Assembly (NCBI RefSeq): GCF_000384475.1
Contig: NZ_ARWB01000001.1
Span: forward strand, 1,778,176-1,842,175
Direction: 5' to 3'
From: Methylopila sp. M107
GTDB lineage: Bacteria > Pseudomonadota > Alphaproteobacteria > Rhizobiales > Methylopilaceae
DNA length: 64,000 bases
In this document: positions 36,217 through 37,834 of the stretch, piece by piece
Numbering within the stretch: the first letter of the stretch is position 1
Layout: each line of letters starts with the position of its first letter
Translations under genes and position numbers: made by a program
Notes under the pieces: model-generated
What the model saw: only the letters and a program-made list of their open reading frames with translations
Told to the model about the DNA's origin: nothing
Database searches by the model: none

Positions 36217-36720
36217 TCAAAGCCCCCGCCGTCCCCGCGCCACCGCGCGAGCGAGCGAGGCCGTCACCTGCGACTCCGCGCGGCGGAAGCTTTCCGGGTC
36301 GGGCGTCGCGATGTTGACCGTGACGGACGCGGCCTTCTGGACCGGCGCGGGCCGGTCGGCCGCGACGCCGAGCGAGGCGGTCGACAGCAGCCCGCCGCCA
36401 AGCGTGCGCGGCGTTCCAAGGCCGCCGCCGGAAAACAGCGCGCCGAAGCCGCCGAGCGCGCCGCGCGTCAGGCCCGAGAAGATCGAGCCGAACGCCGCCT
36501 CGACGGGCTTCAGCGCCGCCTGCAATGCAAGCGAGGACAGCCGGCCGCCGAGCGAGCGCAGCACCTCGCTGAGCGAGCCGCCCTTGACGATGCCGCTCTC
36601 CAGCGCGTCGCCGAGCGCGGAGCCGAAGGCGCGCGACAGCTTTTCGGCTTCTGCGAGCTCGGCGCGCAGCGCGCGGGCGTCGACGTCGACGTTGAAATAG
36701 ACATGGTCCGTCTCAGCCAT
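36217..36720 (-). CDS. GTA tail tape measure protein (gp11-like)
   Basis: 167 residues. The start MAETDHVYFNVDVDARALR and the Gly/Leu-rich hydrophobic middle (ALKPVEAAFGSIFSGLTRG) are those of the GTA tape measure protein, which sets the short tail length. An in-frame ATG at 36735 exists, but the AGGGGACCAGG site favours ATG 36720. It overlaps the end of the frameshifted chaperone frame (stop at 36715-36713) by 8 bp, the usual order of chaperones then tape measure in siphophages. Confidence 0.88.
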   Translation of the reverse strand: MAETDHVYFNVDVDARALRAELAEAEKLSRAFGSALGDALESGIVKGGSLSEVLRSLGGRLSSLALQAALKPVEAAFGSIFSGLTRGALGGFGALFSGGGLGTPRTLGGGLLSTASLGVAADRPAPVQKAASVTVNIATPDPESFRRAESQVTASLARAVARGRRGL

Positions 36721-36904
36721 CCTGGTCCCCTCCATCCGGAAACCGCGCGATCAGCGCCGCGAGTTCGCCGCGCGTCAGCGGTTTTGCGGGAGGTCCCGCC
36801 ATGCCCCGGGCCGCCGCCGCGATCTCGGCCGGCGTCGCGGCCCAGAAATCCTTCGGCGCGAGCCGCAGCACGCCGAGCCCGAACCCTGTCAGCTCTTCCC
36901 AGGG
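36713..36904 (-). CDS. GTA tail chaperone frame (TIGR02216/DUF2376), reached by -1 frameshift
   Basis: The -1 frame encodes PWEELTGFGLGVLRLAPKDFW and on to the stop at 36715-36713, matching the TIGR02216/DUF2376 (TAC_6 chaperone) proteins that sit at this GTA position. The frame has no ATG, GTG or TTG before the conserved start. It overlaps the end of the gp10-like gene, and the heptamer CCCTTTC lies where a -1 slip joins the frames. The fused product would be about 179 residues (116 + 63). A rare CTG start is the alternative. Confidence 0.7.
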   Translation of the reverse strand, partial: PWEELTGFGLGVLRLAPKDFWAATPAEIAAAARGMAGPPAKPLTRGELAALIARFPDGGDQDG

Positions 36905-37251
36905 AAAGGGGTTTTGGGCGCGGGCCCGCCCTCCCCGTCCCCAGCCCCGAAGGTCGCGCAGAGCAGCGCCGCGACGGCGCGCACATAGCCCGCCGCGCCG
37001 TCCGCATGTGTCAGCGCCGCCACTTCCGCGTCGGAGATGTCCGCCCCGGCCCCACGGAGCCCCGCGCCGAGAATTCTCAAGGCGTCCGAGGCCTTCAGCC
37101 GCCCCTCGCCGAACCGGTCCGCGAGCGCGCCGAGGTCGTCGAGCCCGAACGCGTCCTCGAGTTCCGCAAGCGCGCCGAGAGTGAGGACGAGGCGATGCGG
37201 GCGACCGTCGAACACGGCCTCCGTCTCGCCGCGGCGATGGTTTGCGGGCAT
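36889..37251 (-). CDS. GTA tail assembly chaperone (gp10-like, Phage_TAC_11)
   Basis: 120 residues, matching the GTA gp10 / TAC_11 family: AVFDGRPHRLVLTLGALAEL, FGLDDLGALADRF and GYVRAVAALLCATFG. It is the short G-like form of the chaperone pair that coats the tape measure. The start ATG 37251 follows AGAGGAG with 7-8 bp spacing. Its last codons contain the CCCTTTC slippery site, so part of translation should continue in the -1 frame. Confidence 0.9.
   Translation of the reverse strand: MPANHRRGETEAVFDGRPHRLVLTLGALAELEDAFGLDDLGALADRFGEGRLKASDALRILGAGLRGAGADISDAEVAALTHADGAAGYVRAVAALLCATFGAGDGEGGPAPKTPFPGKS
36904..36910 (-). promoter_or_regulatory. Probable -1 ribosomal frameshift heptamer CCCTTTC
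   Basis: In the gp10-like frame the codons read ACC-CCT-TTC. The heptamer C-CCT-TTC fits X-XXY-YYZ. After a -1 slip the ribosome reads CCC TGG GAA and enters the TIGR02216 frame. It lies five codons before the gp10-like stop (36891-36889). Confidence 0.65.
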
Positions 37252-37294
37252 GCAAAAACTCCTCTGGACGTCAAGAATTCAGCCGCCCCTTCCC

Positions 37295-37423: not shown

Positions 37424-37834
37424 TCACAGCGCCGCGAACGCCAGCGCGCCGGCGCTTTCGAGCGCGAGGTCGTAGGTCACCTCGCCGGCGTGCTCGCCCT
37501 TGTAGTCGAGGCCCGTCACCTGGAACGGGCCCTCGATCCGGCCGAAATCCGGGATGACGATCTGGAACTCCGCGATCCCGCCGTCGAACACGAGGCCGCG
37601 GATCAGCGCGTCGGACGCGCCGTCGCGGAACACGCCCGCGCCCGCCACGCTCGCCTTGCGGACGCCTGCGCCCGAGAGCAGCTCCCGCCAGCGGCCGACG
37701 CTCTCCGAATGGGTGACGTCGACGGTTTCGCTGTCGAACGAGAGTTTTCGCGTGCGCAGCCCCGCGACGGTCGTGAAACCGCCGGCTCCGTCCGCGATCT
37801 TCACGAGCAGGTCCCTGCCCTTCTGGATGGCCAT
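37424..37834 (-). CDS. GTA major tail tube protein (TP901-1 family, gp9-like)
   Basis: 136 residues, matching the TP901-1/TIGR02126 major tail protein family: GRDLLVKIADGAGGFTTVAG, then SETVDVTHSESVGRWRELL and FQVTGLDYKGEHAGEVTYDL. Hexameric rings of this protein build the tail tube. Full length, normal start ATG 37834. A palindromic element follows its stop. Confidence 0.94.
   Translation of the reverse strand: MAIQKGRDLLVKIADGAGGFTTVAGLRTRKLSFDSETVDVTHSESVGRWRELLSGAGVRKASVAGAGVFRDGASDALIRGLVFDGGIAEFQIVIPDFGRIEGPFQVTGLDYKGEHAGEVTYDLALESAGALAFAAL

Follow-up and report, generated by a model that had tools for sequence, protein, structure and literature searches.

Analysis of the open reading frames and profile matches on the minus strand of the window (the whole stretch of 64,000 nucleotides from Methylopila sp. 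M107 analysed here) revealed an RcGTA-type gene transfer agent (GTA) cluster; GTAs are tame particles, similar to viruses, that move DNA from cell to cell. The genes of the cluster are ordered portal, capsid, connector, tail completion (gp17-like), tail tube, gp10, TAC_6 and tape measure, and the cluster continues with a DUF2460/TIGR02217 distal tail protein and the megatron baseplate protein (GTA_megatron profile match of 1726 bits). The RcGTA-type membership is borne out by the portal, capsid, connector, tail tube, TIGR02217 and GTA_megatron matches in the window. The gp10 gene and the TAC_6 frame, the latter in the -1 register, lie between the tail tube and tape measure genes, and their features are listed in Table 1.

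Table 1. Features of the gp10/TAC_6 overlap and of the neighbouring tail genes in the window.
Feature	Position	Strand	Evidence
Tail tube protein (gp9)	37424..37834	-	PF06199, E 1.9e-41
gp10-like tail assembly chaperone, frame 0 product "G", 120 aa	36889..37251	-	PF11836 Phage_TAC_11
Shine-Dalgarno-like GGGGAGGG, proposed stimulator	36929..36936	-	18 nt upstream of heptamer; anti-SD duplex -10.9 kcal/mol
Candidate slippery heptamer C_CCT_TTC in gp10 phase	36904..36910	-	Sequence; same site in 7/8 same-genus loci
gp10 frame 0 stop codon, four codons past heptamer	36889..36891	-	Sequence
Predicted -1 frame extension "T", TAC_6/TIGR02216 domain	36713..36904	-	63 residues after slip, plus stop; PF09550
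Tape measure protein (gp11), overlapping the TAC_6 stop	36217..36720	-	NF058675 RcGTA_tape, E 1.2e-18, below curated cut-off; ORF

The initial annotation had assigned the two frames to the tail chaperone families TAC_11 and TAC_6, and both assignments were recovered above cut-off: PF11836 matched gp10 with 96.4 bits (cut-off 27.8, E 1.1e-27) and PF09550 matched the downstream frame with 68.5 bits (cut-off 23.4, E 7e-19), the TIGR02216 match of the latter (55.5 bits) falling slightly below its cut-off of 56.1. The gp10 frame runs from an ATG at 37251 to a TGA at 36891-36889 and the TAC_6 frame stops at 36715-36713; sequence and open reading frames agree with the earlier description of an overlap in the -1 register and of a tape measure gene adjoining the second frame, since its start at 36720 overlaps the TAC_6 stop. 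An alternative ATG is present in the tape measure frame at 36735. Counted from there, the tape measure gene (36217-36735) is short, about 170 aa, and its 67.6 bits are far below the RcGTA_tape cut-off of 220.

The terminal codons of gp10 are CCC AAA ACC CCT TTC CCT GGG AAG AGC TGA, and thus C_CCT_TTC lies in phase at 36910-36904 as the X_XXY_YYZ heptamer that had been proposed. Past the heptamer the -1 frame reads CCC TGG GAA GAG CTG and enters the TAC_6 domain, so that a slip would give a fusion of 116 + 63 = 179 aa, the size given in the initial annotation, with TPF joined to PWEEL at the junction. The initial annotation also stated that the downstream frame lacks a start codon. This holds near the conserved domain, where the window sequence has none of ATG, GTG and TTG from the end of the gp10 domain to the start of the TAC_6 domain, and does not hold further upstream: the open frame extends 363 nt ahead of the domain and includes a single such codon, a TTG at 37255, beside the gp10 start codon and 348 nt away. 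The motif goes beyond chance: of eight loci of the genus, one taken from each genome and the window's among them, seven have CCCTTTC at the same place. In L078, the remaining one, CCCTTTG lies 15 nt further upstream, and TTC replaces TTT at the old FPW site.

The AlphaFold model of gp10 (pLDDT 85.9) shows some resemblance to predicted viral proteins in BFVD whose annotation is tail assembly chaperone or tail tube protein. Several of the tail assembly chaperone matches had a Foldseek probability of 1.0, all with E above 0.001, and the two matches below 0.001 were a protein without name and one annotated as tail tube protein. The predicted model of TAC_6 is middling (pLDDT 76.4, pTM 0.41). Among solved structures, gp10 gave no sequence match and no convincing fold match, and TAC_6 gave short sequence matches only, the best being a HeliScrew4 chain (E 0.0023). 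In 50,697 phage records, tblastn returned no match to TAC_6 and two to gp10, L241 (MW091529.1) and L242 (MW462191.1), and gp10 had no match in viral_contigs. The gp10-like genes of L241 and L242 read A_AAC_CCT followed by TGA, and the annotation places the next gene separately, at some distance; from this arrangement, a frameshift at the stop is possible.

Relatives of the locus were collected in two samples. A PF09550 search gave matches in 37 of 289 genomes of the class (30 loci fetched) and in 156 of 249 genomes of the order (133 analysed), the omitted matches of the order being mostly weaker and one locus being taken per genome even where there were several matches. This class/order sample, which may contain Rhodobacterales, comprises 158 distinct loci with both genes, window included (133 from the order and 25 others from the class); L027 was left out, its gp10 not being recognisable. 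For the second, named set, the RcGTA distal tail protein (PDB 6tba) and its window homologue were used as queries, and the best 80 of 570 relatives provided 77 usable loci, with L216, L231 and L239 excluded for the absence of one or both genes. Their titles are mostly Rhodobacterales, a few being only Alphaproteobacteria or Pseudomonadota and one a MAG titled Exiguobacterium. R. capsulatus is absent from the best 80 of 570, and the nearest to it there is Rhodobacter viridis, with 93% identity in the query protein and a GTGA overlap. The relatives' loci were identified from flanks of 1 to 1.5 kb, and some may be prophages. The total of 237 gp10/TAC_6 loci, two phage contigs included, was reduced to 197 clusters at 85% gp10 identity.

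Among the 158 class/order loci the second frame is in the -1 register in 140, +1 in 12 and 0 in six. Of the -1 loci, 81 have no nearby start, 48 have one that overlaps the gp10 stop and 11 have some other start nearby. For the order alone (n = 133) the counts are 70 without start, 18 ATGA, 10 GTGA, 12 TTGA, eight with another start, 10 in +1 and five in 0. In the 77 loci of the named set (best 80 of 570), a start overlaps the gp10 stop in 57 (ATGA in 42, GTGA in 15), and the remainder are +1 (17), 0 (two) and another start (one). The alignment across relatives that the initial annotation had called for places about half of the order loci (70/133) in the class without a start codon, and heptamers are enriched there. 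Homologues with a start codon for the second gene, which it had named as evidence against a frameshift, exist as well: the ATG or GTG overlap is found in 57 of 77 loci (best 80 of 570) and in 28 of 133 order loci, and these homologues are nearly devoid of heptamers. Since frameshift and separate genes are alternatives in one family, the claim is limited to the window's lineage and similar loci, and is not refuted there.

An in-phase X_XXY_YYZ heptamer was detected in 54 of the 64 no-start cluster representatives of the class/order sample, and heptamers in these representatives number 80 in phase vs nine and eight in the other phases. In 500 codon shuffles, which skipped loci with an overlap below 15 nt (39 of 43 class/order overlap-start loci were used), 18.8 loci had a heptamer on average and 30 at most, compared with the 54 observed. 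In the last 66 nt of gp10, a heptamer is present in 53/64 no-start vs 2/32 ATGA/GTGA representatives of the same sample (Fisher, 1.6e-13) and in 0/43 ATGA/GTGA representatives of the named set (best 80 of 570). L073 and L085, the two ATGA/GTGA representatives with a heptamer, both have AAACCCT, a motif shared with several no-start loci. Excluded from this Fisher test and from the count of changes given below were 13 TTG-overlap representatives (11 class/order and two phage contigs), those in the +1 (27) and 0 (seven) registers and 11 with another nearby start. A kinship-aware test with seven independent pairs on supported branches pointed in the same direction, and is modest (median p 0.03, range 0.016-0.375). 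The concentration of heptamers in no-start relatives supports the programmed -1 frameshift proposed in the initial annotation.

The expectation of a conserved heptamer was borne out in part: an in-phase heptamer recurs, and its motif varies among loci. The main motif in the 54 representatives is CCCTTTC (20), AAACCCT (nine), GGGAAAG or CCCTTTG (six each), AAACCCC (four), CCCGGGG (three), CCCTTTT or AAAAAAC (two each), and AAAAAAG or GGGAAAC (one each). C_CC.U_UU.C is among the motifs named for high-level -1 frameshifting in Escherichia coli, and C_CC.G_GG.C and C_CC.G_GG.U are reported as poor frameshifters, in the available portion of PMC4066793; that portion names the C and U forms, not the G form, and CCCGGGG is a doubtful slippery candidate. 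No heptamer was found in the scanned overlap of 10 of the 64 no-start representatives (L003, L014, L030, L031, L042, L057, L075, L076, L121 and L149). Eight of these ten have a C_CCT tetramer in the overlap, which from its sequence may be a weaker slip site, and L031 is a boundary case, with AAACCCT directly after the TAC_6-frame stop. Eight of the 13 TTG-overlap representatives read CCCTTGA at the gp10 end. In L013, L033, L048, L095, L102 and L103, where gp10 ends in this way, the overlapping TTG may be a chance start; the Shine-Dalgarno-like (SD-like) signal of the CCCTTGA loci, pooled with L241 and L242, is placed as before heptamers, and these loci may thus be frameshifts at the stop and not TTG starts.

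It could be argued that the heptamer is a by-product of coding Pro-Phe-Pro-Trp at the TAC_6 start, and that the second domain is unexpressed here, as a decayed gene. FPW is indeed conserved in both classes and TTT is a common codon there, being used in 20/23 heptamer-free overlap-start representatives, that is, even without overlap. The comparison of TTT with TTC at FPW accordingly failed as a clean control, overlap-start loci preferring TTT too. CCCTTT is found at FPW in 20/36 representatives (no start or other start) where gp10 runs over FPW and in 7/62 class/order loci where gp10 had already ended, so part of the motif at this place could be protein-coding inertia. We consider a by-product of a decayed gene very unlikely, however, as the TAC_6 domain is still conserved as protein (PF09550 E 7e-19) and GGGAAAG and AAACCCT recur in the gp10/TAC_6 overlap of relatives away from FPW. 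Moreover, another in-phase heptamer, its A-site codon being TTT, AAA or CCC, is present upstream in 10/16 representatives without CCCTTT at FPW vs 4/20 with it (Fisher p 0.016), and the same exchange is seen within the window's genus, between the seven loci with CCCTTTC at FPW and L078. Decay would also leave unexplained the SD-like element upstream of the heptamers.

This element is additional to what the initial annotation described. The best anti-SD duplex has a median of -10.0 kcal/mol before the 54 heptamers vs -4.8 at 540 gp10 control positions (Mann-Whitney, 1e-18). Against codon-shuffled upstream sequence the values are -8.90 and -5.59, the observed one being lower in 49/54 loci (p 5e-9). 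Within 30 nt ahead of the heptamers the signal is strongest in windows that end about 10 nt upstream, with a mean of -6.0 kcal/mol, and is about -2.7 by 26 nt; SD cores 5-17 nt upstream accompany 29/54 heptamers vs 664/4239 control positions. Six same-genus relatives have GGAGG or GAGG 7-10 nt before their CCCTTTC. In the window, GGGGAGGG ends 18 nt from the heptamer, which is longer than in same-genus relatives and outside the range of 6-17 nt used for SD spacing in the portion of PMC4066793 noted above. Across the no-start loci the spacing mostly falls where such elements are known to stimulate frameshifting; given the class-wide peak at about 10 nt, that of the window is long. The two frames, the missing start codon, the heptamer and the SD-like element occur together across relatives. 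For downstream structure, 50-nt windows after the 54 heptamers gave z of -0.55 (se 0.21) at +9 vs -0.36 at -60 and -0.50 at +50, and the window's own downstream fold gave z 0.58; a structural stimulator was rejected as a general feature.

The same element could help to make the TAC_6 protein separately, from a non-standard start (CTG, ATT, ATC or ATA) or by re-initiation after the gp10 stop. Such a codon occurs in 29/64 no-start representatives, within the part of the TAC_6 frame that separates the gp10 domain from TAC_6, and relatives do have a separate second gene with an overlapping start. We regard separate synthesis as unlikely. The other 35/64 representatives are without even CTG, ATT, ATC or ATA, and the SD-like signal has its maximum some 10 nt ahead of the heptamer. 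A maximum 0-6 nt ahead of a start codon is seen instead in overlap-start loci, where it is clear in the named set (best 80 of 570) and weak in the class/order sample. In L016 a stop 12 nt upstream closes the TAC_6 frame, no start-like codon remains between this stop and FPW, and CCCTTTC is the sole entry seen. The concentration of in-phase heptamers in no-start loci would also be left unexplained.

Slippage of RNA polymerase, and not of the ribosome, could in principle make a shifted message, and A6 runs (AAAAAAC) do occur in a few relatives. At the window site, AAAACCCCTTTCCC, runs do not exceed four, and transcriptional slippage was rejected there for lack of a long homopolymer. The X_XXY_YYZ phase preference fits re-pairing of tRNAs and the SD-like element would act on ribosomes, so that we consider polymerase slippage exceedingly improbable.

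Taken with the phase and distribution of the heptamers, the sequence makes it highly probable that the gp10 mRNA carries a programmed -1 ribosomal frameshift that makes G- and GT-like tail chaperones. The majority of ribosomes would finish gp10 at its stop, giving the 120-residue chaperone. A minority would pause as the upstream SD-like stretch pairs with the anti-SD of 16S rRNA, with tRNA-Pro on CCT and tRNA-Phe on TTC; both tRNAs would re-pair one base back, onto CCC and TTT, and the shifted ribosome would read through the TAC_6 domain to give the 179-residue fusion. We infer the slipping itself, its rate, the stimulatory role of the SD-like element and the assembly function. The roles of G and GT in lambda tail assembly are treated in PMC5009743, as far as the accessible part of that article goes. 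By analogy with lambda gpG/gpGT, the fusion would serve assembly as it does in lambda: coating of the tape measure protein would fall to the common part, recruitment of the tail tube protein to the rare extension, and the slip frequency would therefore set their ratio.

Programmed -1 frameshifting in tail chaperone genes is of a known kind, well known in phages. The tail assembly chaperone frameshifts of dsDNA phages, lambda gpG/gpGT among them, were reportedly described by Xu et al. in 2004, a study cited in PMC5009743 and PMC3556154. Like lambda, the window locus has two chaperone frames between the tail tube and tape measure genes, with a predicted -1 slip near the end of the first, and several of its relatives use GGGAAAG, the lambda slippery motif. 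Unlike lambda, it lies in a chromosomal gene transfer agent cluster, has a CCCTTTC heptamer plus an upstream SD-like element, and belongs to a gp10/TAC_6 family that also exists as two separate genes. E. coli dnaX and IS911 are SD-stimulated -1 frameshifts, which also have a downstream structure. The no-start loci resemble them in having an SD-like stretch some 10 nt ahead of their heptamers, and differ in that no downstream structure stood out in the GTA loci. In the phiCbK-like Caulobacter phages, a chaperone before the tape measure gene (gp93/gp94) likewise has a -1 slip, at AAAAAAC, or GGGAAAC in Colossus, and a distant kinship to GTA tail proteins has been noted (PMC3556154, available sections). 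In contrast to the window locus these are free phages with a different heptamer, and those sections claim no GTA frameshift. In RcGTA the two genes are g10 and g10.1, the latter name being that in the accessible text of PMC9765227. Rhodobacterales loci of this type share with the window the gene order, the families and the -1 register (58/77, best 80 of 570), but start their second gene at an ATG or GTG that overlaps the gp10 stop (57/77, best 80 of 570). Within the portions of the open PMC literature that were available, no report of a gp10/TAC_6 frameshift in GTAs was found.

Judging by these overlapping starts, the loci nearest RcGTA (best 80 of 570 relatives) use separate genes, and the putative frameshift type makes up about half of the sampled order (70/133 loci). 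A tree of gp9, gp10 and TAC_6 (191 of the 197 representatives with gp9) requires at least 17 changes between no-start and ATGA/GTGA by parsimony, compared with 37 or more in 500 label shuffles; with TTGA counted as overlap starts the number is 21. These numbers indicate that the trait follows ancestry and yet seems to have changed often, the count being approximate because root and direction are not fixed and the tree is of limited resolution. The -1 register is preserved by ATGA, so that one or a few mutations suffice to pass from either state to the other. On balance we favour the hypothesis that one domesticated tail module went back and forth, with at least 17 switches (one tree, parsimony), between a -1 frameshift fusion and an ATGA/GTGA overlap with two proteins, in which the slippery motif (CCCTTTC, AAACCCT, GGGAAAG, CCCTTTG, or C_CCT directly before TGA) turns over and an SD-like stimulator persists.

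What most merits testing is this alternation with separate genes; the best studied GTAs are those of Rhodobacterales, where the gp10/TAC_6 genes look ordinary. If the frameshift is true, about half of the sampled order loci (70/133) would make a fusion that is probably needed for tail building, start-codon-based gene finders would be expected to miss or truncate it, and the slip site would offer a small target for turning off particle production in laboratory strains. If the switching is true, the G to GT fusion of lambda would be replaceable by separate subunits in GTAs, and the occurrence of both arrangements in one family would be a natural experiment on why lambda-like phages retain the frameshift.

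Two further observations concern single genomes. The MAG titled Exiguobacterium profundum (L171, CP059262.1) has a Rhodobacterales-like GTA locus, with 77% identity in the distal tail protein, in which the gp10 frame continues past the TAC_6 start in frame 0; the record name is probably wrong. Additionally, the genome G427, from the same genus as the window, has four PF09550 matches, indicating that several GTA or prophage tail modules may coexist.
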